A stretch of 64,000 bases of DNA from Candidatus Diapherotrites archaeon LH_S9. Lineage in GTDB: Archaea > B1Sed10-29 > WALL01 > JAGXON01. Positions 1,431 to 63,738 of this stretch are shown piece by piece (positions within the stretch are counted from its first letter, which is position 1; every line of letters starts with the position of its first letter). Made by a program: the position numbers and the translations under genes. Where the stretch lies: positions 1 through 64,000 of the forward strand of contig JAGXON010000004.1 in the NCBI GenBank assembly GCA_023659865.1, written 5' to 3'. The notes beneath the pieces were generated by a model that searched no databases, was not told the origin of the DNA, and was given only the letters and a program-made list of their open reading frames with translations.

Positions 1431-1760
1431 ACTACCGCCACCAAAATCAAAGATTTTGGAAGCGGCTTCAAGGTTAGCTCGCACTCAATTGCGCCACAAT
1501 CCCTTTAGATATACCAAGGGGATGAGCCGTGCCACCTTCGTGTTCGACACTACCTTGTTTAGGGCGTGATCCACTGACGCCCAGATCGTCTGACATATAG
1601 CCAAACAATCTTCTTACTATGTCAACTGCTCTGAGAAAATCCGCGTTATACTCTTTCTTACAGGTTTGACAGACTGCTGTGGACTGAGAACTTCTCGTTA
1701 TTCGTCCTAAACAGTCCCTGCAAACTTGAGAGGTATATGCAGATTATCTCACGCTGATAT
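1431..1760 (-). pseudogene. decayed TnpB (IS200/IS605-type) C-terminal remnant and right end
   Basis: Minus-strand translation gives TSQVCRDCLGRITRSSQSTAVCQTCKKEYNADFLRAVDIVRR, a TnpB zinc-ribbon C-terminus; followed by an end segment with hairpin CCAAAATC-TTT-GATTTTGG. Confidence 0.65.
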
Positions 1761-1800
1761 TTAGAGTAGCATCGTATTTAAAGGTTTTGCTTCTGTATTC

Positions 1801-1828
1801 CCTCCCAAACATTTAAGTTTGGAAGGGG
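1801..1828. other. stem-loop next to the tnpB remnant (CCTCCCAAAC...GTTTGGAAGG)
   Basis: Inverted repeat visible in sequence. Confidence 0.4.
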
Positions 1829-1878
1829 TCTTAGAAGCATGAGTTCAGATAAATGTCTTTTTTAATGGTTTAGTATAA

Positions 1879-3094: not shown

Positions 3095-5797
3095 ATGTCA
3101 TTTGAGTTATTGGAACCAAAAGTTAAAAGACTAATTGAAGAAAGGTTCGACCAACCAACAGAAGCCCAGAAAAAAGCAATACCAAAGATAACGGAAGGAA
3201 AAAACACGCTCCTGATAGCACCAACAGGCCTAGGAAAAACAGAGGCCGCAATACTCCCTGTTCTGTCGGAACTGGTTAATCAAGAGTCTGAACCCATCCA
3301 AATGCTTTACATCACTCCGTTAAAGGCCTTGAACCGAGATCTCGTCGATAGGATAACCTCGTGGACGGAAGAGCTCGGCATAACTTGCGAAGTCCGGCAC
3401 GGTGACACATCAAGATCGCAGAGATCAAAACAAGCAAAAAATCCGCCGCAGATACTTATTACGACACCTGAAACCCTTCAGAACATACTGCCCGCAAAAA
3501 AGATGGGAAAACACCTCTCGAACGTTTCAAAAGTAGTTGTCGACGAGATACACGAACTTGCAGAAAGCAAAAGAGGTTTGCAGCTAAGCATAGCTCTAGA
3601 AAGACTGCAAAAAAGAGCGCAAGAAGTTCAAAGAATTGGTTTGAGCGCCACGGTTGGAACCCCGGACGAGACAGCCAAGTTCCTCGCAGGAACAGACCGA
3701 GACTACAAAGTAGTAGACGTTACATTCGCCAGAGAGATTGATCTATCCGTGGAAAGTCCTTCAGCCCAGGAACAGGACCGGAAGGACTCAAAAAAACTTC
3801 ATTTAGATCCAGAAGCTATTTCAAGACTAAGAAGACTTCACGAACTCGTTGAAGAACACGAATCTGTCCTAACTTTTGTAAACACTCGGCAGATGGCGGA
3901 ATTGCTTGGCTCCAGGTACTCTGCATGGGACTCTCAGCACGGTATAAAAGTCCATCACAGTTCCTTATCAAAAGACACGCGCGTACTAGCGGAAGAAGAA
4001 TTCAAGGAAAAAAAGATAAAAGGCGTGATCTGCACTTCCAGCCTTGAACTAGGAATAGACATAGGGAGCATCGATTTAGTAGCTCAATACACTTCCCCAA
4101 GACAGGTGAACAGGCTTCTTCAGCGAGTTGGGAGATCAGGCCACGGCCTAGGACGCGTTCCAAAAGGGGTGGTAATCTGTTCGAACCCAGAGGATATAGC
4201 TGAAGCTACAGTAGTGTGCAACAAAGGGAAAGAAAATGAGTTAGAAGCTATTGAACTCCGTAAACGAGCTTTGGACGTGCTAGCGCACCAGTTGGTCGGC
4301 ATATCACTGGATTTAGGTAGAGTGACAAAAGACAGTGTTTACGAACTCGTGAAGAAAGCTTACCCGTTCGCAGAATTAATCCGAAAGGACTTCGATGACA
4401 CTCTCGAGCAAATGGAGTCCGAAAGATTTGTCTGGATAGATGGAAACACTTACAGGAGAAGTAAAAAAGCTTTCAAGTACTACTACGGCTCCGTATCAAT
4501 GATTCCTGCAAAAGAAAAGTTCTTCGTCAACAGCACTTCTGGAGAAAGTGTTGGGACATTAGACGAAGCGTTCGTCGCAGAGTACTTGAGGCCCGGTAAG
4601 ATCTTTATAACTAAGGGAAGGCCCTGGAAAGTCGTTGACATCCGGGAAAAGAAGGTACTGGTCGAGCCAAGCACAGACATATCTGCGGCGATCCCTGACT
4701 GGGCAGGAGAAGAGCTGCCAGTACCCTTTGATATTGCTCAGGAAGTAGGAGAACTCAGGAAAAAACTTGCTGAAGGAAAGAAAATTGATGAAAGCGTGCT
4801 TCAGCCAGACGCAGCAAGAAAACTGAAGGAATCAGTTGAAAAACAACTTGAGCACGGGTTCATGCCAGACCACGAGACTATCTTCCTCGAGACCTTTCAG
4901 AACACTGTTGTCATGCACGCGCACTTCGGCACCAAAACCAACATAACGCTAAGTAAACTGCTTTCATCGCTGCTTACGTCTTTCCTCGGACAAGCGATAA
5001 GTGCGACCGCAGACCCCTACAGGATTATCTTCCAGTTTCCAGCTAAAACAAGGCCGGATCTGCTGAAAAAGCATTTGGAGGACCTCGAGCCCGATGCAGT
5101 CAGGCCAGTGCTCGACAGAACTCTTTCCAGAAGTTCTTTGTTCAAATGGAAGTTTTTACACGTCGCCAGACGATTCAGTTTGATTGGGAAAAAATCAAAT
5201 TACAAGAAGTTCCGCATAAGATCGCTTATAAACGCTGTCATAGATTCACCGATACACAAAGAAACCCTGAACTCAATCTATCACCAGAAGATGAACATAG
5301 AGAAGACGAAAGAGATTTTGGAACGAATTCACGCACAAGAAATCAAGATAAAAGAAAAAAAGACCGCTCAACCAAGCACTTTTGCTTCTTTCTCTCGTAA
5401 AGGCAAGGACTTGTTCGTCCCGGAAAAGCCCACGGCCAAGATCCTTGAACTAGTGAAGAGCAGGATACTTGACAAGAAACAAGGATTCAAGTGCATAAAC
5501 TGCGGTCACAAGTGGTATAAGAAGTTGGAAGAGCTGGAGGACAAGGTTAAGTGCCCTGAATGCGGTGGGAAAATGGTCACTTTCCTTAAAGCAAGCAAAA
5601 AGAAGAAGGTAGCATCGCTCATCAAGTCCTACGGGAAGAGAGCTGTCTGGGCTCTTAATGCTCATGGAGTCGGTCCAGTAACTGCGACGAGATTGCTCAA
5701 GAACCTTCGGGAAGACGAAAAAGACTTTTTCAAGGACTTGGTTAAAGCCGAAAGGCAATACATAAAAACAAAGCATTACTGGAAGGATAAGGAATGA
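3095..5797 (+). CDS. Lhr-like DEAD/DEAH-box helicase with C-terminal zinc-binding region
   Basis: APTGLGKTEAA, DEIHE, LSATVG, QRVGRSGH motifs; CxxC pair (CINCGH...CPECGG) near the C-terminus. Confidence 0.9.
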   Translation: MSFELLEPKVKRLIEERFDQPTEAQKKAIPKITEGKNTLLIAPTGLGKTEAAILPVLSELVNQESEPIQMLYITPLKALNRDLVDRITSWTEELGITCEVRHGDTSRSQRSKQAKNPPQILITTPETLQNILPAKKMGKHLSNVSKVVVDEIHELAESKRGLQLSIALERLQKRAQEVQRIGLSATVGTPDETAKFLAGTDRDYKVVDVTFAREIDLSVESPSAQEQDRKDSKKLHLDPEAISRLRRLHELVEEHESVLTFVNTRQMAELLGSRYSAWDSQHGIKVHHSSLSKDTRVLAEEEFKEKKIKGVICTSSLELGIDIGSIDLVAQYTSPRQVNRLLQRVGRSGHGLGRVPKGVVICSNPEDIAEATVVCNKGKENELEAIELRKRALDVLAHQLVGISLDLGRVTKDSVYELVKKAYPFAELIRKDFDDTLEQMESERFVWIDGNTYRRSKKAFKYYYGSVSMIPAKEKFFVNSTSGESVGTLDEAFVAEYLRPGKIFITKGRPWKVVDIREKKVLVEPSTDISAAIPDWAGEELPVPFDIAQEVGELRKKLAEGKKIDESVLQPDAARKLKESVEKQLEHGFMPDHETIFLETFQNTVVMHAHFGTKTNITLSKLLSSLLTSFLGQAISATADPYRIIFQFPAKTRPDLLKKHLEDLEPDAVRPVLDRTLSRSSLFKWKFLHVARRFSLIGKKSNYKKFRIRSLINAVIDSPIHKETLNSIYHQKMNIEKTKEILERIHAQEIKIKEKKTAQPSTFASFSRKGKDLFVPEKPTAKILELVKSRILDKKQGFKCINCGHKWYKKLEELEDKVKCPECGGKMVTFLKASKKKKVASLIKSYGKRAVWALNAHGVGPVTATRLLKNLREDEKDFFKDLVKAERQYIKTKHYWKDKE

Positions 5798-6519
5798 ATC
5801 CAGCACTGGTTTACTCGAAGAAAGACCTTGCAGGAAAGAACATAGCAAGGCACATCACGCAAAAAACGGATCTTCCGTTGATGGAAATAGAGCAGGATAT
5901 AATCTACGCGGAAATAGATGAACTGAAAAAAGATCACGGCTTCGACTATGCCGTAATGCTCTCCAGACACAAGAGCAAGTCAGGAAAGCCTTGCTTCACT
6001 GTTCACGCGCCCGGGAACTTTGACGAAGCAAAGTACGGAGGAGAAGAAAGAACTCTAGCGAAAACAATTGCGGAACCCATGCACAGAATTTACTTGGAGC
6101 TAAGGAAAACTAATCAAGACTATGCGGTCTGTAGAGAGGCAACGCATCACGGTCCTACTCCAGAAACTCCGTTGTTCTTCGTTGAACTAGGATCCAGTAA
6201 AACAGAGTGGAAAGACGAAAAAGCAGCAGATTTTATCGCCGGATCAGTGGTACGAGGATTGGAGTCAAGTGAAAAATTTCCCGTAGCCCTTGGGTTTGGA
6301 GGCGGGCACTACTGTCCAAAGTTCTCTGAAATGACTGGAACTGCTTTCAGCCATGTTTGTCCAAAGTACATGCTAGACGCCTTGAACAAGGATTTGATCG
6401 AGCAAATGGTTTCAAAGACTTTTGAAGAAGTTGAATTGTTTTCTTTTGACGGAAGCAATTTAAGTTTGAGACATAAAAAGCTTTTGGATGTTTGGCGTCC
6501 AAGAAAGGGATCAAAGTAG
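5794..6519 (+). CDS. dtdA: D-aminoacyl-tRNA deacylase (DtdA/GEK1 type)
   Basis: EATHHGPTPETPLFFVELGSS...ALGFGGGHYCPKFSE...FSHVCPKY family signature. Confidence 0.92.
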   Translation: MNPALVYSKKDLAGKNIARHITQKTDLPLMEIEQDIIYAEIDELKKDHGFDYAVMLSRHKSKSGKPCFTVHAPGNFDEAKYGGEERTLAKTIAEPMHRIYLELRKTNQDYAVCREATHHGPTPETPLFFVELGSSKTEWKDEKAADFIAGSVVRGLESSEKFPVALGFGGGHYCPKFSEMTGTAFSHVCPKYMLDALNKDLIEQMVSKTFEEVELFSFDGSNLSLRHKKLLDVWRPRKGSK

Positions 6520-13441: not shown

Positions 13442-14298
13442 AAATAAAAACTCCTCTAGTGACGATAGGCCTCACTCTCTTCTCAATAGTTCTTTACCTT
13501 GCTCTATCAAAAGGAGCACCCTACGTACACCCAATAACAGAAATGACGAAATTCGGCCTATACAAAGGAAACGTTCTAGGCCTAGCGGCCTATTCCTTCA
13601 CTCATATTGGTATAAGACACTTAATCAGCAACATGGTCGTGTTCTTTTCTATGGGGTCGCTCCTGGAACAACACATAGAAGGAAAACACGTACTAGGGAT
13701 ATTTGTTTCCTCCGGCGTCCTCTCAGGATTTATCTACTCTATGATATATCCTTCGGTATGGGTGGTAGGAGCAAGTGCATCAATAGCAGGGATAATAGCA
13801 GCAGCGGTAATAGCGGACTTCAAAAAAGCTGTTCCCGTGCTCATAATCTCTGTTCTATCGATATCATTCATATTTTTTCCGTTAACAAACCACTCTCTTT
13901 CTTTTCTCCAGCAAGAGAAGAAAGAAGCAAGCCTTAAATCAATGGAAGAGGTAACTAAACTTAATACATCAGTTCAATCAATCCAAGAGCAAGTAGAAGT
14001 ACTGGGGAAAAAGATAGAGGCAGGAAATGCAACCGAAGAAGAAATAATCCAGTACCAGACCCTTCAAACAAAAATGCAGAGCATTTCAACTGAAATGCAG
14101 CAAGAAGCAGCTCAAGCAGAGCAAAAACAAAAAGAAAAAAAAGCAATATCTGAAGGAATGGAAACAGAATCGATGGCTCCTGTATCAAACCTCATACACA
14201 TCTTTGGAGTACTGACAGCAGTACTTTACTTAGCTATATTGGATAAGGAACTATTCTACAAATTTAAGAGGGATATAGTTGGAATTTTCAAATCTTGA
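13438..14298 (+). CDS. rhomboid-family intramembrane protease with inserted coiled-coil loop
   Basis: FTHIGIRHLISNMVVFFSMG, VVGASASIAGIIAA (GxS), late hydrophobic segment NLIHIFGVLTAVLYLA containing His. Confidence 0.8.
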   Translation: MKIKTPLVTIGLTLFSIVLYLALSKGAPYVHPITEMTKFGLYKGNVLGLAAYSFTHIGIRHLISNMVVFFSMGSLLEQHIEGKHVLGIFVSSGVLSGFIYSMIYPSVWVVGASASIAGIIAAAVIADFKKAVPVLIISVLSISFIFFPLTNHSLSFLQQEKKEASLKSMEEVTKLNTSVQSIQEQVEVLGKKIEAGNATEEEIIQYQTLQTKMQSISTEMQQEAAQAEQKQKEKKAISEGMETESMAPVSNLIHIFGVLTAVLYLAILDKELFYKFKRDIVGIFKS

Positions 14299-15283
14299 AA
14301 CCCATGAAATCGTTGAAGAACTCCAGAAAGTTCTGGATGAAAGAGTCAAAAAAGTCCAGCTAGTCTCTGAAAAAGAATACAAGCTAAGACTCGAGAAAAA
14401 CAACATTGTAATAGCTCCTCCAGAAGCTCTTTACCTCACTAAAAGACCATACCCTGCAAAAAGACCTGACAACTTCTCCATGTATGCCAGGAAAAGACTT
14501 AGCGGAAAAAGAGTCAAAAAGATAACTCAAAACAATTTTGACAGAGTCATAACAATCCATTTTGAAGACGGCTACAAGCTCATTGCAGAACTATTCGGAG
14601 AAGGCAACCTCATCCTACTCGACAAAGCCAATCTAACTCGAAAGGCCCTTGAATACCAAGAATGGCGGGATAGAAAAATAAAAAAGAAAGAAGAATACCG
14701 CTACCCGCAACCCAGAGGCAAAGATCCCTTCAAGATGAACGAAGAGGGATTTGTTGAACAAACAAAAAACGAAAGAGCGCTCAAAGCACTAAAGAAACTT
14801 CTTAACATGGGAGAAAAGTACTTGAAAGAAATATGCCAAGCCACAGAAATTCAAGAACAGGAAAAACTCAACGAAGAAAAGTCAAAAAAACTATTTAAGG
14901 AACTTAAAGAACTTCTCAAAAAGCAAAGGAAACCAGGAATACAAACCGAACCAGTCATATTTCCATTAAAATCAGTTGAAGAAGAATTCGAAGAAAAAGA
15001 ATCCTTTAACGCGGCTGTAGATGACTACAGGGCAAAAGAAAAAAAGTCCAGAAAAAAGCAAACAAAAGAAAAAAAGCTATCAAAACTGCAGCACAGGCTA
15101 AAACAACAAAAGAACGCCAGAAAAAAATTCAAGGAACAAATAAAACAATACAAAGAGAAAGGCAACTGGATCTACAATCACTTGAATGAACTAAAGCAAG
15201 TGTTCATGCAAGAGGATTTCAATAAAAAAATAGACGGCCTCAAGATTAAAAGGAAAGGAAAAAAGCTAGTGCTCGAGGAATAA
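14279..15283 (+). CDS. NFACT-N / fibronectin-binding-A-type protein (RqcH-like), short form
   Basis: N-terminal NFACT-N-like sequence (YARKRLSGKRVKKITQNNFDRVITIHFEDGYKLIAELFGEGNLILLD) and coiled coil; ends at 334 aa. Confidence 0.8.
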   Translation: MEFSNLETHEIVEELQKVLDERVKKVQLVSEKEYKLRLEKNNIVIAPPEALYLTKRPYPAKRPDNFSMYARKRLSGKRVKKITQNNFDRVITIHFEDGYKLIAELFGEGNLILLDKANLTRKALEYQEWRDRKIKKKEEYRYPQPRGKDPFKMNEEGFVEQTKNERALKALKKLLNMGEKYLKEICQATEIQEQEKLNEEKSKKLFKELKELLKKQRKPGIQTEPVIFPLKSVEEEFEEKESFNAAVDDYRAKEKKSRKKQTKEKKLSKLQHRLKQQKNARKKFKEQIKQYKEKGNWIYNHLNELKQVFMQEDFNKKIDGLKIKRKGKKLVLEE

Positions 15284-15986: not shown

Positions 15987-16930
15987 TGGGTGAACACCAA
16001 GAAAAGCTGGAGACAAAAGGATACAAACTACTGGGGGATCACGGAGCTGTCAGCCTTTGTCACTGGACCAAAAAAAGCATAACAGAAAACAGGACCTGCT
16101 ACAAGCAAAAATTTTACGGTATAAACTCACACAGATGCCTCCAGATGACTCCATCTATATTCTGCCAGCAAAAATGCGTTTTCTGCTGGAGGCCGCAAAC
16201 CCTTTCAAAAACCATTCCAGAAGATATCGACTGGCTTGAACCAAAAGAACTAATAGAAAAAGCACTCAAAGCTCAGAAAAAGCTCTTGGAAGGTTACTAC
16301 GGCATGCTGGATGATTTGAACGAGCAGAAGCTTGATCAAGCCCAGGAACCTAATCAAGTAGCGATATCACTGACAGGAGAACCAACAATATACCCCTACA
16401 TGTCGGAACTGATAAAAGAATTCAAGAAAAAAGATTTCACAACTTTCCTGGTGACCAATGGGCTTAAACCAGATTTACTGGAGAACATGGAGTTACCTAC
16501 ACAGCTTTATGTTTCCCTAGAAGCATTTTCAGAGGAACTACACAAAAGAATAAACATCCCGTTTGAAGAAAATTCCTGGCAAAAGATACAGAGAACGCTC
16601 GAACTGCTTTCAGAACTCGACACTCGAACCGTGATCCGAACTACTTTGCTCAAGGACTGGAACATGGAAGAACCAGAAAAATTCGTTCCCTTGTTCGAGA
16701 AAGCTAGTCCTAACTTCATAGAATTAAAGGCCTACATGTTTATTGGCTCGTCCAGGCAAAGACTATCAATCGGTAACATGCCAAGGCACTACGAAGTCAA
16801 AGAATTCGCGGAAGAAATAGTTCCAGAACTCTCTGAATACGAGATAGAGGATGAGGACTCGCAATCAAGAGTGGTTCTACTTAGAAAAGAGGGAGCCGAA
16901 AGAAAGATTCAAACGCCTTCAGGTTCATAG
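15986..16930 (+). CDS. taw1: tRNA 4-demethylwyosine synthase (Taw1/TYW1), radical SAM
   Basis: CQQKCVFCWRP, LTGEPTIYPYMSELI, YGINSHRCLQMTPS motifs. Confidence 0.93.
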   Translation: MGEHQEKLETKGYKLLGDHGAVSLCHWTKKSITENRTCYKQKFYGINSHRCLQMTPSIFCQQKCVFCWRPQTLSKTIPEDIDWLEPKELIEKALKAQKKLLEGYYGMLDDLNEQKLDQAQEPNQVAISLTGEPTIYPYMSELIKEFKKKDFTTFLVTNGLKPDLLENMELPTQLYVSLEAFSEELHKRINIPFEENSWQKIQRTLELLSELDTRTVIRTTLLKDWNMEEPEKFVPLFEKASPNFIELKAYMFIGSSRQRLSIGNMPRHYEVKEFAEEIVPELSEYEIEDEDSQSRVVLLRKEGAERKIQTPSGS

Positions 16931-17253
16931 CCTTTCAGAGCATCTAGGGCAATATCCTGCACGTGCCTGCTTTTGTCATCCGAAAGTTTTTGAAGGCCTT
17001 CAGCCTCATCCTTTATACCCTCATCGTTAAGCAAGTAACTAAGTGATTTAGTGGGTTTGACATGACTGCCGGGAAGTCTTCTTCCGACAACTGGGGGTAG
17101 TTCACTCCTTACTTCACGATGATTGTCTTCAGTTAGTCAAAAAGATGATCTAAACCGCTTTCTTTTCTTGTTTTCAGCTCCTTAGCAGCTTTTTTCCTTA
17201 TTTTTCAACGACTGCTTCCGACTGTTTCTTAAGCTGGAAGGGTATCTCACTCA
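16914..17253 (-). pseudogene. decayed gene with HEAT-like repeat C-terminus
   Basis: Minus-strand fragments MSEIPFQLKKQSEAVVEK* ... TEDNHREVRSELPPVVGRRLPGSHVKPTKSLSYLLNDEGIKDEAEGLQKLSDDKSRHVQDIALDALKGYEPEGV* in different frames with in-frame stops. Confidence 0.5.
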
Positions 17254-50628: not shown

Positions 50629-51858
50629 TTGGATAATGGGGGAATACTATTGAGTGACGATATTTTTGAGACAGAGGTTACAAGGGAGACCATTTTTGAG
50701 GACAGAGACGTACTAAGCCCTCACTACATACCCGACAAACTACCTCACCGAGAAAAACAGATAGAAAGAATAATGGAAATACTTGCGCCAGCACTGTCGC
50801 ACAAGAGGCCTAGTAACTTGTTCATTTACGGAAAAACAGGTTCTGGTAAAACAGTTTGCAGTAAAAGAGTTCTGCAAAAACTTAACTCGGTTAAAGAAAA
50901 GTACGATGCAGACGTGGAAGACGTTTACACCAACTGCCGAGTTCACAACACCAGGTACCAGGTGTTCACAAAAACTGCTGAAGCAGTGTTCCCGGACGAG
51001 GACTTCCGAGGCTATTCCTCAACGCACCTGTACGACAAGATGCTTGACTACATCGAGGACAAGAACCTCACCTTCATATTCGTTCTGGACGAACTTGACA
51101 AAGTCAAAGACCTCGACGACCTCATCTACACTTTGACCAGAGCTAACGATGACCTGAACCAAGGAAGAGTAGTGATAATCGGGATTTCGAACAGAGTCAC
51201 GTTCAAGGAAAAACTTGACCCGAGAAGCAAAAGCACTTTATGTCAAGAAGAAATGGTTTTCCCACCGTACAACGCGGAAGAACTTCACTCAATCCTCGAA
51301 GAAAGAGCTGAAGAAGGATTCAAACAAGGAATGTTCAAAGACTCAGCCATAGCTTCTGCATCAGCTTTCGCAGCTAACGAGTCAGGCGACGCCAGGTACG
51401 CTCTAAAGCTGTTGATTAAAGCAGGTGAAATAGCTGACAAGAAAGCTGAGCCAGTGACCGACGATCACGTTCAGGAAGCTCGTAGCGCAGTAGAAAAAGA
51501 AATCGTTTTCGACTTGATCGAATCACTTCCCGAGCACCAGGGAATCGTTTTGCAGGCCGTGGCCTCTCTTTCCAAGGAGGGCGGTAAGTACTCGAAGCTC
51601 GTTAAAACTGACGAGGAGGATGCGGACAAAGTTCTTTTTTCAGGAGAAGTCTACGATCGTTACGATAAACTGTGCAGGGACTGGAGCAAAAAGCCTCGTA
51701 GCTCAAGATGGTTCAGAGAGTACTTGAATGAACTGGAAATGCTTGGATTGATAACAACCAACATCTCAGGCAAAGGCGTTCGAGGCAACACTAGACTCAT
51801 CAGATTGTCTTTTCCTCCGGACGAGGTAAAAGAAGCCGTGGAAGAAAAGTTCAAGTGA
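50629..51858 (+). CDS. cdc6: Orc1/Cdc6 replication initiator
   Basis: FIYGKTGSGKTVCSKRVL, FVLDELDKVKD, C-terminal winged-helix region. Confidence 0.95.
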   Translation: MDNGGILLSDDIFETEVTRETIFEDRDVLSPHYIPDKLPHREKQIERIMEILAPALSHKRPSNLFIYGKTGSGKTVCSKRVLQKLNSVKEKYDADVEDVYTNCRVHNTRYQVFTKTAEAVFPDEDFRGYSSTHLYDKMLDYIEDKNLTFIFVLDELDKVKDLDDLIYTLTRANDDLNQGRVVIIGISNRVTFKEKLDPRSKSTLCQEEMVFPPYNAEELHSILEERAEEGFKQGMFKDSAIASASAFAANESGDARYALKLLIKAGEIADKKAEPVTDDHVQEARSAVEKEIVFDLIESLPEHQGIVLQAVASLSKEGGKYSKLVKTDEEDADKVLFSGEVYDRYDKLCRDWSKKPRSSRWFREYLNELEMLGLITTNISGKGVRGNTRLIRLSFPPDEVKEAVEEKFK

Positions 51859-54318: not shown

Positions 54319-55767
54319 TTAAAGTTTTTTTCTGGTTATGGTGTAGAGGGTTGCGAGAAGTATTGTTAGTGTTGTTAGTAGGATTGTTGGTGTGTTTGTT
54401 TTTTGTTTTTGGGTTGTTTTGCCTGTGATGCTTGCTTTTTGTTTTTCTTGTTTTTGTTTTATTTGTTGTAGTTTTTGTATGGTTTTTTGTTTTGTTTTTG
54501 GTTTTTCTGTTTGTTTGGTGGTTTGTTTGTTTTCTTGTGTTTTTTCTTGTGTTGTTGTTTTGTTTTGTTTGGGTTTGTGGTTTGTTTGTTTTTGGGCTTC
54601 TTCACTTGTTGTTTTGTTTGGGTTTGTGTTTGTTGGTGTTCTGCTTGTGCTGCTGCTTGTGCTTGTGCCGCTTGTGCTGGTTGAGCTTGTAGTGGTTGTG
54701 CTTGTGCTGCTTGTGCTTGTGCTGTTGCTTTTGGTGCTTGTTTTTGTGTTGGTTTCAGTGTTTTCTTCTGTCTCTGTGTGTTTTTGTGGGGGTTTGACTG
54801 GGTTGGTTAGTGGGATTTGTTTTTTGTTTTTTGTTTTGGTTGTGTGTTTTTTGTAGCATGGGAATACTATTTTGTTGGTTTTGGTGAATGTTCCGTTGTT
54901 TAGGCGTTTGTAGCAGGTGCCGCGTTTTGGCATGTGTTTGCATGGTCCTTTTGTAGAGGTTTTTGTGGTGAGTTTGTTGTTGTAGCATTGTTGTTTGGCT
55001 TCTGTTGCTGTGAGGTCGGTTGTGTATATTTCTCCGTATTTTTTTTGTTGTCTGTTGTCTGTCGCTCCTAATATTTCTGGCGGTCGATACGTCATATTCA
55101 GGTTCCATTTGTATGTGGTTCCCGAGTTTTGGTCCCAGATGTCCCAGGTGTAGTCGTCGTAGTTCCCTGCTGAGATGTTCCAGAAGTATGCTGGTAGATC
55201 GTCTGGAGTTACTAGTTCTGTCCAGGGGTAGTCTTTCCATCCTTTTGCCCACATTGTGAGGTTGGTTCTTACTGTGTCTGGTTCTAGGTCTTCTTCGTTG
55301 AGGTTGCCTACTTCTGATATGATGTGGAATGTTGTTCCTGTTGTGATTGTGTCTGGTGCGTATACTCCGTGCCATAGCCATGTGTAGGTGGAGTTTATGT
55401 ACGCGCTTGTGTTGTCTTCTTCTCCGGAGTTGTCGTTGTCGTCTTGTGCTTTTATGTGTAGGGTTTGGTTTGTTTCGGGTATGTTTGTGAATGTTAGGAT
55501 CCATTTCGAGTTGTTTTCTGTGCTTGTTAGGTTGGAGATGTTTATTGATTGCCAGTTGCTTTCGTCGTAGGCGTAGTCTACTTGTGCCATTGCTGAGTCG
55601 TTTGTGAAGGTGACTGTGATGTTGTCGTCGTAGTAGTAGTTGTCGTTTGGATTCGTGTCGTTTTCGTAGTTCCAGTTCCCGTACCCTCCGTTTTCTATAA
55701 AGTTTTGAGTGTAGTTTGCGTCCAAAATCGTGATGTTTGGTCCAACAGAGTTTTCAATAAAGTACAC
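54319..55767 (-). CDS. C-terminal part of large surface protein, split by duplication; Ser/Thr-rich stalk and C-terminal TM
   Basis: 482-aa ORF starting at an internal GTG inside repeat copy 1; STSSTSTTTTSSTSTSGTSTSSSTS linker; TPTILLTTLTILLATLYTITRKKL tail. Continuous with 56871..60218 when 1241 bp is removed. Confidence 0.75.
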   Translation of the reverse strand: MYFIENSVGPNITILDANYTQNFIENGGYGNWNYENDTNPNDNYYYDDNITVTFTNDSAMAQVDYAYDESNWQSINISNLTSTENNSKWILTFTNIPETNQTLHIKAQDDNDNSGEEDNTSAYINSTYTWLWHGVYAPDTITTGTTFHIISEVGNLNEEDLEPDTVRTNLTMWAKGWKDYPWTELVTPDDLPAYFWNISAGNYDDYTWDIWDQNSGTTYKWNLNMTYRPPEILGATDNRQQKKYGEIYTTDLTATEAKQQCYNNKLTTKTSTKGPCKHMPKRGTCYKRLNNGTFTKTNKIVFPCYKKHTTKTKNKKQIPLTNPVKPPQKHTETEENTETNTKTSTKSNSTSTSSTSTTTTSSTSTSGTSTSSSTSRTPTNTNPNKTTSEEAQKQTNHKPKQNKTTTQEKTQENKQTTKQTEKPKTKQKTIQKLQQIKQKQEKQKASITGKTTQKQKTNTPTILLTTLTILLATLYTITRKKL

Positions 55768-56919
55768 CCATGCTTTATCCCCTATGTTTCCTGCTTTGTC
55801 TACTGCTTTAACTTTTGTGGTGTGGTTCCCGTCTCTAAGTGATACTGGGTATGGTTGTAGGCAGGGGAAATCACTGTTGTTTGCCCAGCTTCCGTTATCT
55901 CTTTTTACTAGGTAGTATGCTAGGTCAGGATCGTTCCTACTTTTGTTACACTCTCCTCCTGCAAGAGAGTCAGTGCTATTCCAGTTAGGGTCAGCACTTG
56001 AATATGTACTTCCATTCTCTGGATCGATGATTGTTACGTTTATAGTGCTGGAATCTTTTTCGTAGTTGTATGGTTTTGTTGTGTTGGTTTGGGGTTGTGT
56101 GGGGATGTCGTTTGTGGCTTTGAGTTTTATTGTTCCTGTTGGGTTTATTGTGATGTTTGTTGCTGTGCAGTTTCCGTTTGTGTAGTTTGTGTTGTTCCAT
56201 GTGCTTTCGTTGTCTACTGTGTATTCGCATGATTTTATTCCGGTTTGTGGGTCTGTGGTTTTTGCTGTGATGTTTAGTTGGGGTGAGTGTTGTGGGTCTG
56301 GTAGTATCCAGGTGGTGTTGTTTTTGTAGCCTTCTGAGAATTGTATGTTTTGGAATTGTGGTGGTGTTTCGTCTATTTGGAATTTTCTTGTTCTGTTTCC
56401 CCAGCCGTTTGTGTTGTTGCATGCTATATGGATTTCGTGTTCTTCTGGTGGGGTGTAGTCGATTGGGTTTGTTAGTTGGGTGGTGTTGCTTGTGTTTGTG
56501 TTTATTGTTCCTATTTCTGTCCAGTTGCCGTTGTTAACTTGGTATTGGCAGTAGGTTGTGTTTGAGTTGTCGTCTGTTGGTGTGAAGGTGAAGTTGGTGA
56601 CGTTGCGGTACCATTGGTTTTTTGGGTGGTCTATGGTGATTGTTGGTGTTGGTGCGTTGATTGAGACGGTGATGTTGTCTATTAGTATTCTTCCTCCTTT
56701 TTTGTAGGTGTCTCCGCATTTTCCTTCTGTGTCGCAGGCTCTTGCGTATAGTGTGTGGTTTCCGTTGTTTAGTTGGGTGAAGTTGTGTGTTTTGTTTGTG
56801 GTGTTTTCCCAGGTTGTGGTGTCTTTTTTGGTTTGGTAGTGTTGTATGTCGTTTGCTGTTGAGTTGTATTTTATTTCGATCCATGTTTCATTGGTTTTGT
56901 AGTTGTTTGTTGGTGAGGT
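55742..56919. repeat. 1178-bp direct repeat, copy 1
   Basis: Starts ccaacagagttttcaataaagtacaccc and ends gttggtgaggt; matches 56983-58160 at constant offset 1241 with no difference seen. Confidence 0.93.
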
Positions 56920-59900
56920 CTTAGTACGTCTCTGTCCTCAAAAAACCAATGGTACCGCAACGTCACCAACTTCACCTTCACACCAACAGAGTTTTCAATA
57001 AAGTACACCCATGCTTTATCCCCTATGTTTCCTGCTTTGTCTACTGCTTTAACTTTTGTGGTGTGGTTCCCGTCTCTAAGTGATACTGGGTATGGTTGTA
57101 GGCAGGGGAAATCACTGTTGTTTGCCCAGCTTCCGTTATCTCTTTTTACTAGGTAGTATGCTAGGTCAGGATCGTTCCTACTTTTGTTACACTCTCCTCC
57201 TGCAAGAGAGTCAGTGCTATTCCAGTTAGGGTCAGCACTTGAATATGTACTTCCATTCTCTGGATCGATGATTGTTACGTTTATAGTGCTGGAATCTTTT
57301 TCGTAGTTGTATGGTTTTGTTGTGTTGGTTTGGGGTTGTGTGGGGATGTCGTTTGTGGCTTTGAGTTTTATTGTTCCTGTTGGGTTTATTGTGATGTTTG
57401 TTGCTGTGCAGTTTCCGTTTGTGTAGTTTGTGTTGTTCCATGTGCTTTCGTTGTCTACTGTGTATTCGCATGATTTTATTCCGGTTTGTGGGTCTGTGGT
57501 TTTTGCTGTGATGTTTAGTTGGGGTGAGTGTTGTGGGTCTGGTAGTATCCAGGTGGTGTTGTTTTTGTAGCCTTCTGAGAATTGTATGTTTTGGAATTGT
57601 GGTGGTGTTTCGTCTATTTGGAATTTTCTTGTTCTGTTTCCCCAGCCGTTTGTGTTGTTGCATGCTATATGGATTTCGTGTTCTTCTGGTGGGGTGTAGT
57701 CGATTGGGTTTGTTAGTTGGGTGGTGTTGCTTGTGTTTGTGTTTATTGTTCCTATTTCTGTCCAGTTGCCGTTGTTAACTTGGTATTGGCAGTAGGTTGT
57801 GTTTGAGTTGTCGTCTGTTGGTGTGAAGGTGAAGTTGGTGACGTTGCGGTACCATTGGTTTTTTGGGTGGTCTATGGTGATTGTTGGTGTTGGTGCGTTG
57901 ATTGAGACGGTGATGTTGTCTATTAGTATTCTTCCTCCTTTTTTGTAGGTGTCTCCGCATTTTCCTTCTGTGTCGCAGGCTCTTGCGTATAGTGTGTGGT
58001 TTCCGTTGTTTAGTTGGGTGAAGTTGTGTGTTTTGTTTGTGGTGTTTTCCCAGGTTGTGGTGTCTTTTTTGGTTTGGTAGTGTTGTATGTCGTTTGCTGT
58101 TGAGTTGTATTTTATTTCGATCCATGTTTCATTGGTTTTGTAGTTGTTTGTTGGTGAGGTGATGTTTATGTCTGGTGCTTGTGTGTTTACTGTGATTGTT
58201 ATGTTTTTTTCGGGTCCTGTGTTTCCTGCTTTGTCTGTTGGTTTTGCGTGGATGGTGTATGTTCCGTCTGCGAGTGTTATGGTGTGTGTTCCGTTTCCTG
58301 TTGTTTCGTTTGCTGTGTTTTTTTGCCATTCTGAGTTGTTTATTTTGATTTCTGCGTAGTCTGGGTTTTCGTCGTTTATTGTGTAGTTTGTTTTTATTGT
58401 GTTGGTTGTGTTGAATTTGGTTCCGTCTTTTGGTGCGGTTATGTTGATTGTTGGGGGTGTGAGGTCTACTTTTTGTTCTATTTTTGTTGTGTTGAATGCG
58501 TAGATGAGTCCTCCTTGGGTTGTTGATATGTAGAGTTTGTTTTTGTTTATTATTGGTGTTTGTTGTGTCCATCCGTCTAGTGGGTGTTCCCAGAGGTTTT
58601 TCCCGCTGTTTTGGTTTATTGCTTGTAGTTTTCCTTGTCCGTTGGTTATGTAGATTAGTTGGTTTTTGATTTTTGGTGTGGATAGGATCCAGTTGTGGTT
58701 TCCGGTGTTTTCCTCGGTGTAGTTCCAGATTTGTTTGTGGGTTGTCATGTTGATGGCGTGGAGTTTTCCTCCGTTTTGGGTTGGGTTGCCTTTGGTTCCT
58801 ATGTAGAGGGTGTTGTTGGTTATGGTTGGGTTTCCGAGGATTGATCCGGTTTTGTATTTCCATAGTTTTTTGCCGTTGGTTTTGTTGAATGCGTATACTC
58901 CGTCTGCGCATGCGATGATTGTGTTGTTCAGTACTATTGGTTTTGCGTCTATCCAGTTATAGTCTGTTTTTCCGTTCCAGATTGTTTCTAGTGTTGTGGC
59001 GTTTAGGGCGTGGATTTTGCTTCTTCTTCCTCCTACGTACACTATTCCGTTTTCTACTACGGCTTCTGAGTATCCTCTGATTCCTTTTCTTGTTTTTAGT
59101 TTTTCTCCGTTGGTTTTGTTTATTTTGTAGAATTTTGGTGCGGTTCTTGATGCGGTTTCAATGTATAGGTTGTCTCCGTTTATTGTGGGGCGTGTTTTTC
59201 CTTTTGAGAGGGTTGTGTTCCATAAGTATTTTTGGTTGGTTAGGTTTAGGGCGAATAGTATTCCGTCTGAGGTAGATTGGTATAGTACTCCTTCTTCTAT
59301 CAACGGGTTGCCGTTTACTCCATCTGGTAAGTTGGTGGGCGCGCTTTTGTTCCATATGGTTTCTCCGTTGGTTTTGTTCAGGGCGTGTATGAGGTTGCTG
59401 TCTATTCTGGTTCCTACGTAGATTTTTTCTCCGTCGGACCCGAGATCGGGTTCTATTCTTCGTTTTATGTCTAGTTGTCTTCTCCATGTGATTGCGTCGC
59501 TTGATTCGTTGAGGGGTCGGGTCGTCGCGATTGCTATTGGCTGGCTTGTTTGTCCTCCTTCGTTGTCTATTATTCTTACAACGGCTCCGATTCCGTGACT
59601 GGAGTAGTCGGGTGTGGGGTTGTATTCGTGTGTTATTGTTGGTTCTGTGGTTGTTGTGGTGTTGTTTGGTGTTAGTTCCCATTTGTATTTGGTTATGTTT
59701 CCGTCTGTGTCGTGTGAGTTGGTGGCGTTGAATAGGATTTTTTTCCAGGTTTTTTTGGTGGTTGTTATGTTTGGTATGGGTTTTATGTTTATGTTGTATG
59801 TTCTGTTTTCTGTGGTTTCGGTGGTTTGGTTTGTGTCGTGGCATTTGATGTTCCATTTTGTTGTGGTGTTTATTGTGGTGTTGTGGAAGATTTTGTTGTG

Positions 59901-60218
59901 TCCTTGTGTGGGGTTGGTTAGGGTTTTTTGGGTTTGTAGTGTGTTGTTGGTTTCGTTGGTTTGGAGTGTGCAGTTTTTGAGGGTTGTTTGGTTTGTTATG
60001 TTGAATGAGTATCTGGTTTGGTAGGTGTTGTTGTTTTTTAGCCATTGGTGGTTGATGTGTCTTGTGGTGTTGTTTTTTGGGTTTTTTAGGGTTATGTTGA
60101 GGTTGTTTGTGTTTGTTATTGTGTTTTTTGTGGTTTTTGCGGTTGCTGTTGCTGTTAGTGTTGTGAGAATGAGTACAACGGTTAGTACCAGGGTTTTCCC
60201 CCAGGACTTTTTCAGCAT
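56871..60218 (-). CDS. N-terminal part of large surface protein: signal peptide, PQQ-like beta-propeller, Ig-like repeats
   Basis: Signal MLKKSWGKTLVLTVVLILTTLTATATA; repeated ALNKTNGETIWN / ALNATTLETIWNGK / AINMTTHKQIWNY blades; Ig-like DNAs; last 36 residues after VYFIENSVG come from the repeat junction. Confidence 0.8.
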   Translation of the reverse strand: MLKKSWGKTLVLTVVLILTTLTATATAKTTKNTITNTNNLNITLKNPKNNTTRHINHQWLKNNNTYQTRYSFNITNQTTLKNCTLQTNETNNTLQTQKTLTNPTQGHNKIFHNTTINTTTKWNIKCHDTNQTTETTENRTYNINIKPIPNITTTKKTWKKILFNATNSHDTDGNITKYKWELTPNNTTTTTEPTITHEYNPTPDYSSHGIGAVVRIIDNEGGQTSQPIAIATTRPLNESSDAITWRRQLDIKRRIEPDLGSDGEKIYVGTRIDSNLIHALNKTNGETIWNKSAPTNLPDGVNGNPLIEEGVLYQSTSDGILFALNLTNQKYLWNTTLSKGKTRPTINGDNLYIETASRTAPKFYKINKTNGEKLKTRKGIRGYSEAVVENGIVYVGGRRSKIHALNATTLETIWNGKTDYNWIDAKPIVLNNTIIACADGVYAFNKTNGKKLWKYKTGSILGNPTITNNTLYIGTKGNPTQNGGKLHAINMTTHKQIWNYTEENTGNHNWILSTPKIKNQLIYITNGQGKLQAINQNSGKNLWEHPLDGWTQQTPIINKNKLYISTTQGGLIYAFNTTKIEQKVDLTPPTINITAPKDGTKFNTTNTIKTNYTINDENPDYAEIKINNSEWQKNTANETTGNGTHTITLADGTYTIHAKPTDKAGNTGPEKNITITVNTQAPDINITSPTNNYKTNETWIEIKYNSTANDIQHYQTKKDTTTWENTTNKTHNFTQLNNGNHTLYARACDTEGKCGDTYKKGGRILIDNITVSINAPTPTITIDHPKNQWYRNVTNFTFTPTDDNSNTTYCQYQVNNGNWTEIGTINTNTSNTTQLTNPIDYTPPEEHEIHIACNNTNGWGNRTRKFQIDETPPQFQNIQFSEGYKNNTTWILPDPQHSPQLNITAKTTDPQTGIKSCEYTVDNESTWNNTNYTNGNCTATNITINPTGTIKLKATNDIPTQPQTNTTKPYNYEKDSSTINVTIIDPENGSTYSSADPNWNSTDSLAGGECNKSRNDPDLAYYLVKRDNGSWANNSDFPCLQPYPVSLRDGNHTTKVKAVDKAGNIGDKAWVYFIENSVGVKVKLVTLRYHWFFEDRDVLRPHQQTTTKPMKHGSK
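56920..56982. other. 63-bp mosaic junction between repeat copies (cdc6 fragment plus inverted self fragment)
   Basis: 56920-56944 = reverse complement of 50693-50717 in cdc6; 56939-56990 = reverse complement of 56573-56624 (and 57814-57865). Confidence 0.92.
56983..58160. repeat. 1178-bp direct repeat, copy 2
   Basis: See copy 1. Confidence 0.93.
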
Positions 60219-61165: not shown

Positions 61166-63337
61166 TTACCAGTTCTGTAAAGTTGTCTGAGGCTGATCTG
61201 TTTTCCGCACTTTCTCAAGCTCTTTTTCATCAACTTCCTGGCCTAGTTGTTTCTTGATTTTAGCGGCTAGTTTCCCGCCAAGAATCCTTGCCAAATCCTT
61301 TGAATTCGTTTTCTTCAAGCCATTCACGGTTTTCACCTGGTTTTCAAACAATTTTCTCGCGCGAACTCGGCCGATTCCCTTTAATTCAGCTAGCGGCAGC
61401 AGCTCGGATTTAATACCGTGCTTTATTCTTCGACGAAGTTTCTTCAATCCCGAGAAATCGAGTTCTCTGACCTTGCACAATTCTTTTGCAGAGTAAGCCA
61501 TCCACTCAGCGTTACTCATTATCCCTCTTAATGTCCCGGGCTTCACGTTAAATTCCTCGAGTATTTCTTCGTCAGTTTTTTCACTGATCCATGCTTCCAT
61601 GAGCTTCGCGGTCTTGAATTTTTTCAGGAACTGGTATTCCTCGAAACCAATGCTCACGACATCGAAACCAAGTTCGTTGTCACGAGAGTGCGCTTCACTC
61701 CACAGATCGTCTTCTTCTCCTTTTCTCACTCGCAGGTACGGCTTCATTTCCTCTGTGTCAACCAGAGCGTAAAGCAATCCAAGGACCTTGAAATCTCTTT
61801 CCTGGAACGCTTCAAGCATCGAGTGAGAAGAGTAAGGATCCAGGTAAAGCTCGGAAGTTCGTTTACCTAGCTCGGTAGCAACAAGCTTTCCATCAGTTTT
61901 TTCCACGAAACCTTTTTCGTCAAGCTCGTTCAGAATGCGATCAACTTTGTTCTTCAGCACACGACTTTCTCCGTACTGATGAGCGTGGAAACTGCTCATC
62001 AAAAACTCTTCCAGGCCTTCCTCGGTTCCAACGAATCTAGCGGCAATGCTTGCGAGCAACTGGGTTCTTAGCACTGGCTCCAGCGCTAGCTGCGAGTCAA
62101 CTGGTTCAGGGGTTCCTTTCACGTACTTGTCCCAATACTTTTTCTTCTTGTTCTTGTTCTTCACGGCAATGATGGCTTCTCCTTCGTCATTGTACTGTGG
62201 TCTAGCGATTCGGCCGCTTTTTTGCTTGTATTCTCTGACCGGGATCTCCTTGATTCCAGCGGAAGTGTACCGAGTCATGGATTTGTGCACTGCTCTCTCA
62301 GCCGGCAGGTTCACACCCATCGCTACTGTAGGGGTTGCAGCAATAGTGGATAATTCTCTTTCCTTAAATGCTTTTTCCACTATGGTTTTCTGCTCGTGCA
62401 CTAGTCCAGCGTGATGGAATGCCGAGCCTTTCCTGATGCAGTCCGCGAGTTTCTTGCATTGTTTTGTAGGTTGCTCTAGCGCGCTTAAGACCTTTTCAGC
62501 TATTTTGTTTAGTTTTCCTTTGTTTTTCGGATTCGATAAGCCTGCTACTTTTTTTGCAGTGGATTCAGCGCTTCTTCTGGTTGACGTGAACACTGCTGTT
62601 TGCTCGTTTTCTTTGAGAGAGTCTTCGATTAACTGCATTGTTGGTGAGGACTGGTTTGACTGGATTTTTCTTGTTCCTTCGGTTGTTTTGATGGTTCCGT
62701 TGAAGTAAACGCCTTCCACGAGTTTTGTAGGCCGCCAGTCGGAGCTTACTAGTTCGGAGTCAAGCCAGTCAGCGATTTCTTCTGCGTTCGGTATCGTGGC
62801 GCTTAATGCGAGTATTTGTACGTCCTGGAAAAGTTGCTGGAATCTGGTGACGAGTACTTCAAGGGTTGGACCTCGATCTGAGTCAAGCAGGTGTACTTCG
62901 TCGACTATCAGGAGTTTTATGTCTGGAATCCATTTTGTTTTATGTCTCATGAGGGAGTCAAGTTTTTCGTTACTGCAGAAGATTGCGTTTTTTTTCTTGA
63001 GCCATGAGTCTTTTGAGTCAAGGTTCCCGAGCGATAGACCTGGTTTGAGTCCTATTTTTTTGTATTTCTGGAAGTTTTTGTGTTGTTCGTGGGCTAGGGA
63101 GCGCAGGGGGCAGGTGTAAGCGGTTTTCTTGTTTTTTTCCAGGTTTTTGAGTGCTGCTAGTTCTGCAACAAGGGTTTTTCCTGATCCGGTCGGGCTTGCT
63201 ATAACGAGGTTCTTTTTTTCTTCAAGAAAATTGGTTTCCAGTGCTTGTTTTTGCACTGGGTTGAGTTCTTTTATGCCTTGGTCTAGGAGTATTTGTTTTA
63301 CTTCTTGTTTGAATCCGTGTTTTTTGAGTTCTTCCAT
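61166..63337 (-). CDS. hel308: Hel308-type Ski2-like DNA helicase
   Basis: IASPTGSGKTLVAELAAL, VDEVHLLD, LSATIPNAEEIADWL, TPTVAMGVNLPAERAV, QKSGRIARPQYNDEGEAII, C-terminal HhH; start set at MEELKKHG (63337). Confidence 0.92.
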   Translation of the reverse strand: MEELKKHGFKQEVKQILLDQGIKELNPVQKQALETNFLEEKKNLVIASPTGSGKTLVAELAALKNLEKNKKTAYTCPLRSLAHEQHKNFQKYKKIGLKPGLSLGNLDSKDSWLKKKNAIFCSNEKLDSLMRHKTKWIPDIKLLIVDEVHLLDSDRGPTLEVLVTRFQQLFQDVQILALSATIPNAEEIADWLDSELVSSDWRPTKLVEGVYFNGTIKTTEGTRKIQSNQSSPTMQLIEDSLKENEQTAVFTSTRRSAESTAKKVAGLSNPKNKGKLNKIAEKVLSALEQPTKQCKKLADCIRKGSAFHHAGLVHEQKTIVEKAFKERELSTIAATPTVAMGVNLPAERAVHKSMTRYTSAGIKEIPVREYKQKSGRIARPQYNDEGEAIIAVKNKNKKKKYWDKYVKGTPEPVDSQLALEPVLRTQLLASIAARFVGTEEGLEEFLMSSFHAHQYGESRVLKNKVDRILNELDEKGFVEKTDGKLVATELGKRTSELYLDPYSSHSMLEAFQERDFKVLGLLYALVDTEEMKPYLRVRKGEEDDLWSEAHSRDNELGFDVVSIGFEEYQFLKKFKTAKLMEAWISEKTDEEILEEFNVKPGTLRGIMSNAEWMAYSAKELCKVRELDFSGLKKLRRRIKHGIKSELLPLAELKGIGRVRARKLFENQVKTVNGLKKTNSKDLARILGGKLAAKIKKQLGQEVDEKELEKVRKTDQPQTTLQNW

Positions 63338-63738
63338 TTTTTGATCATTTTCTCGTGGTCGAACGCTAGTTCCGGCAGTTTTTTTTCTTCGAATGCTTTT
63401 ACAGAGGTGGTTTCGGTTGTTTTGTCGGTAATTTTTTGTTTTGCCTTGCATTTAAAGCATATTGATATTGCTCTGCCGCGAGGATCGCGCTCAGGATCGT
63501 CGAATACGCCGATTAGTTTTTCTGGTTTGCATTCGTAGCCTGTTTCTTCTTTGACTTCTCGTTTCAGTGCGTCTTCAGCGGTTTCATTGATTTTTATTAT
63601 GCCGCCGGGCAGCGCCCATTTTCCTTTTTCTGGTTTCCATTTTCGTTTCACGAGCACTAGTTTCTTGTTTTTTTTGAGTATTGCGTCTACGGTGAGCAAG
63701 AAGTTTGTTTTGTTTATTTGAGTGTTTATGTCCGTCAT
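63298..63738 (-). CDS. NUDIX hydrolase
   Basis: GGIIKINETAEDALKREVKEETGYE matches the Nudix box (GX5EX7REUXEEXGU). Confidence 0.95.
   Translation of the reverse strand: MTDINTQINKTNFLLTVDAILKKNKKLVLVKRKWKPEKGKWALPGGIIKINETAEDALKREVKEETGYECKPEKLIGVFDDPERDPRGRAISICFKCKAKQKITDKTTETTSVKAFEEKKLPELAFDHEKMIKKWKNSKNTDSNKK

Follow-up and report, generated by a model that had tools for sequence, protein, structure and literature searches.

The junction between the two copies of a direct repeat in a surface-protein gene is very probably an in vitro chimera of the phi29/MDA type, formed by three template switches, that a de Bruijn assembler working at k=55 then wrote out as a tandem duplication. The analysed window, a stretch of 64,000 nucleotides, is part of a contig of 74,933 bp (C33) from an archaeal genome of 670,822 bp in 38 contigs, which is 66% complete. 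The reading draws on the anatomy of the sequence, the equivalence of the assembly graphs, a restored open reading frame and the presence of other chimeras in the same assembly, each of which was observed directly. It implies that the source DNA underwent whole-genome amplification, presumably carried out by phi29.

Anatomy of the repeat and insert

The surface-protein gene as assembled occupies 54319..60218 on the minus strand and gave Pfam matches to PQQ_2 and Big_13 together with a weak PKD match. A Hel308-like helicase gene (61166-63451) lies directly upstream of the region. Within the surface-protein gene a direct repeat of 1,178 bp was found with a spacing of 1,241, the first copy at 55742..56919 equalling the second at 56983..58160 at each base, with zero differences. 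The copies are separated by a chimeric insert of 63 bp (56920..56982), the limits of which were set by the extension of the repeat.

The first-pass annotation had described this junction as a mosaic of a cdc6 fragment and an inverted fragment of the surface gene itself, and the comparison of the sequences confirmed that description. The first patch (56920..56944, minus strand) is the exact reverse complement, over 25 nt, of positions 50693-50717 in the cdc6/orc1 gene, which is itself intact (50629..51858, plus strand; Pfam Cdc6_C, Cdc6_lid and AAA). The similarity reported to run on into gtgagg extends the match to 32 nt with one mismatch (56913-56944 against cdc6 50693-50724). The second patch (56939..56990, minus strand) is the exact reverse complement of surface-gene positions 56573-56624 over 52 nt, overlaps at both ends included, and matches the second copy (57814-57865) equally well, a match absent from the earlier description. 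The copied cdc6 segment can also be seen in the translation of the split open reading frame (60218-56871, ...ENSVG-VKVKLVTLRYHWFFEDRDVLRPHQQ...), which encodes FFEDRDVLRPH where Orc1 has IFEDRDVLSPH.

The short homologies that had been named at the joints were all present on the plus strand when the sequences were compared. At the joint J3 (56913..56919) the 6-nt motif GTGAGG is common to the surface gene and cdc6 and is followed by one mismatched base (T vs G). The joint J2 (56939..56944) consists of CAAAAA, 6 nt common to the cdc6 patch and the inverted gene patch, and J1 (56983..56990) consists of CCAACAGA, 8 nt common to the inverted gene patch and the start of the second copy. Two of the three switches are inverted, and the distances between templates are 6.2, 5.9 and 0.8 kb. 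When these templates are joined at random, an overlap of 6 nt is reached with p = 0.0005-0.0024, so homology very likely primed the joints of 6, 6 and 8 nt. An alternative template for J3, the joint with the mismatch, was also sought, and the best match elsewhere was of 12 nt, in contig C6.

The genome-wide match searches covered the 642 kb that could be read of the 670,822 bp, 20 small contigs being read as N. Inverted exact matches longer than 18 nt within 20 kb were found across these 642 kb only at this junction (52 and 25 nt) and in contigs C4 (55 nt), C5 (55 nt) and C6 (33 nt), and a threshold of at least 25 nt returned the same four places. In 15 dinucleotide-preserving shuffles (2-kb blocks) the longest match had a length of 16-20 nt. 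The comparison stretches from three other archaeal genomes were nominally 800 kb, with part of one reading as N; among the matches listed for them, the longest local palindromes did not exceed 22 nt and spaced matches did not exceed 19 nt. Since long inverted matches are confined to the junction, C4, C5 and C6, and the shuffles reached at most 20 nt, a chance origin of the junction is excluded. No similar junction was found elsewhere in the readable contigs (642 kb) beyond those of C4, C5 and C6.

A 414-nt exact inverted match was also seen between window positions 1438-1851 and contig C36 (9729-10142), a longer element common to the two contigs. Contig C35 holds a near-identical tandem repeat with a period of 275 (16390-16658 and 16665-16933; exact stretches of 239 and 29 nt), which is either a true tandem duplication or a further assembly product. 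Contig C11 contains a 280-nt exact direct repeat (13895-14174 and 14670-14949, 775 bp apart) with shorter exact matches close by, and this looks like a duplicated coding region undergoing divergence. Rfam and tRNA scans of the window gave no matches.

Assembly graph and the surface-protein gene

Several contig ends share exact 55-mers, the signature of de Bruijn assembly at k=55. The order of the contigs is that of a text-sorted series NODE_1 to NODE_38 ranked by size with every rank present, suggesting a stand-alone assembly of the SPAdes type and not a metagenome bin, although renaming could mimic such an order. The k-mer set of the contig at k=55 is that of a single-copy locus plus a 663-bp junction fragment, and no more than two branch vertices come from the junction. 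The resulting graph is a simple loop, and the sole walk that uses all of its edges passes through the 1,178-bp stretch twice, which reproduces the assembled contig. Read support is not required for the second copy, nor would any read have to cover both copies, because the all-edge walk of the loop already writes the stretch twice and the k-mer content is satisfied without that copy. One of the two 1,178-bp copies is thus probably a product of the assembler, a possibility that the first-pass annotation had not raised. With lengths of 25 and 52 nt, the two patches stay below k and so leave the graph untangled at k=55, whereas longer patches would break the contig. An assembler of the SPAdes type would traverse a simple loop of this kind once, and the assembler used here presumably behaved in this way.

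Removal of one copy together with the insert, by joining 54319-55741 to 56983-60218, gave an uninterrupted open reading frame of 1,552 aa. Inspection of this frame by eye revealed a signal peptide at the start and, at the end, a Ser/Thr-rich stalk, a hydrophobic segment and a TRKKL tail, while Pfam identified a PQQ propeller and an Ig-like domain, a PKD domain scoring under the cut-off. With both copies in place only 1,115 aa are encoded before a stop, and the C-terminal anchor is cut off. Among order-level relatives, the frames of related surface proteins run without interruption, for example over 1,098, 1,143, 1,515 and 1,744 aa. A scan of genome contigs with cdc6 found no relative, and one with DP2 found only relatives of at most 57% identity, in MAGs labelled Diapherotrites, Micrarchaeota and 'archaeon'. 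The intact 1,552-aa frame, the loss of the anchor in the two-copy form and the uninterrupted frames of the relatives together indicate that the single-copy form is likely to be the functional one. The chromosome most likely carries one copy of the stretch and one intact gene for a surface protein of 1,552 aa.

Inverted chimeras elsewhere in the assembly

The same 55-mer stands at both ends of contig C4 in opposite orientation (1-55 and 5935-5989) and at the end of contig C8 (3490-3544). The forward join of C8 to C4 encodes a radical-SAM/DUF5591 protein, which in 15 relatives is colinear almost from end to end, so that the inverted join of C4, between segments 5.9 kb apart, is chimeric. An S-layer-like gene in contig C6 (Pfam S_layer_C) has no start, and what remains of it follows a stop codon immediately, from 1886 onward. 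Its start, MKSMNVKK, was found at the left end of the contig, next to positions 1-33 and on the other strand, and rejoining across the 33-nt match gives a protein of 842 aa. As this restores the S-layer-like gene, the join at 1885/1886 is an inverted chimera, between segments 1.85 kb apart, that lies inside the contig. The 33-nt match was also considered as a plain paralogous signal peptide, which is disfavoured because rejoining yields a complete S-layer-like gene; a chimera is preferred. Contig C5 has hairpin ends of exactly 55 nt (1-55 and 5652-5706) and is probably a third inverted chimera.

Origin of the junction and known systems

Template switching through short-homology joints, as proposed in the first-pass annotation, is well supported by these data. 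The choice between an event in vivo and multiple displacement amplification had been left open there. An in vitro origin is now favoured by the inverted chimeras within the same assembly, by overlaps at the published mode for MDA, by the intact gene obtained on removal of one copy and by the assembly loop. Other routes, in vivo or during library preparation, could yield the same joints.

In the proposed course of amplification, a strand copied from the surface gene would have its 3' end displaced, and this end would re-prime on cdc6, about 6.2 kb off and in the opposite orientation. After about 25 nt of cdc6 had been copied, the strand would re-prime on the surface gene, inverted, for about 50 nt, and a third re-priming 824 nt away would return it to the first orientation, with each joint primed by 6-8 nt of homology. 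The mismatch at J3 would fit best with a nascent strand growing in the plus direction, in which GTGAGG was base-paired and the last base, T, was not. The junction would then route the path to the start of the 1,178-bp stretch, creating the simple loop in the k=55 de Bruijn graph, and an assembler walking this loop once would write the stretch twice.

The best of the alternatives is a real and very recent tandem duplication in vivo with a templated insert, splitting the surface gene through either MMBIR/FoSTeS-like replicative template switching or iterative microhomology end joining, and it appears improbable. The anatomy of the joints is as expected for such an event, with short homology, nearby templates and switching orientation, but these features are not specific and are common to MDA chimeras. 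A biological precedent exists in HELQ-deficient C. elegans, which yields patchwork insertions together with tandem duplications, HELQ being a helicase of the Hel308 family that suppresses tandem duplications in that animal (PMC8654963); here, however, the Hel308 gene (61166-63451) is present and full-length. A duplication in vivo would also break an otherwise intact surface gene and leave copies that are perfectly identical, whereas the contig is explained without any duplicated molecule, and at least two further inverted chimeras in the assembly break genes that are intact by an alternative join.

A chimera arising in library preparation or PCR instead of MDA, followed by the same assembly loop, is rated as less probable again. 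Short-homology joints in single molecules and an identical graph would be expected from this route too, but several near-range inverted chimeras, each shaping contigs, are the known pattern of MDA (PMC1855051). Late library chimeras would, moreover, have very low depth. Programmed variation of the surface protein by rearrangement is scarcely credible. Large surface proteins, such as the one encoded here, often vary, but the locus has no recombinase-type repeat and no second cassette, the donor is a fragment of a replication initiator, and the three joints are unrelated and bring in a premature stop.

An amplification chimera resolved by the assembler would most likely make the junction immaterial biologically, as the surface gene is probably single and intact in the cell. 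For data hygiene it is of consequence, in that a triple-switch chimera with patches shorter than k can survive in a 75-kb contig and emerge as a perfect, gene-splitting tandem duplication. The gene breaks, inversions and identical repeats of this assembly call for caution, since further inverted chimeras are present in it. If the duplication were real in vivo, its junction would document, base by base, an MMBIR-like event in a surface-protein gene of an archaeon.

Tandem duplications with templated insertions of the MMBIR/FoSTeS type have been described mainly in human genomes. The junction resembles them in its serial short-homology switches and in the small templated patches at the junction of a duplication. 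It differs in that the chimeras of the same assembly and the loop suffice without an event in vivo, and in that the duplication is known from the contig alone. The patchwork insertions made by polymerase-theta end joining in helq-1 mutants of C. elegans (PMC8654963) likewise contain short patches from multiple templates and are accompanied by tandem duplications. They differ in coming from an animal and in having patches mostly from the flanks of the break, whereas one patch here comes from 6 kb away and Hel308 is present in the window.

The comparison with MDA chimeras shows differences as well as likenesses. One joint of the junction keeps a mismatch; a proofreading polymerase would often remove a terminal mismatch, and its retention at J3 counts against an origin by MDA. 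Three switches within about 60 nt are rarer than a single switch and would be an uncommon outcome of MDA, which also counts against this origin; multi-switch (higher-level) read pairs make up a few percent of chimeric pairs (Tu et al., 2015, PMC4595205). The likenesses concern orientation, distance, overlap and recurrence. MDA chimeras are inverted in 85% of cases, mostly have less than 10 kb between their segments and arise from priming at 2-21 complementary nt (Lasken and Stockwell, 2007, PMC1855051), and their overlaps have a mode of 6 nt, most being 5-8 nt (Tu et al., 2015, PMC4595205). Correspondingly, two of the three switches at the junction are inverted, as are the chimeras of C4 and C6, and the templates fall within about 10 kb of each other (6.2, 5.9 and 0.8 kb at the junction, 5.9 kb in C4 and 1.85 kb in C6). 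The overlaps at the junction are 6 nt (then one mismatch), 6 nt and 8 nt, and, as in MDA data sets, more chimeras are found in the same data, here C4/C8 and C6 as judged by the genes that are restored.
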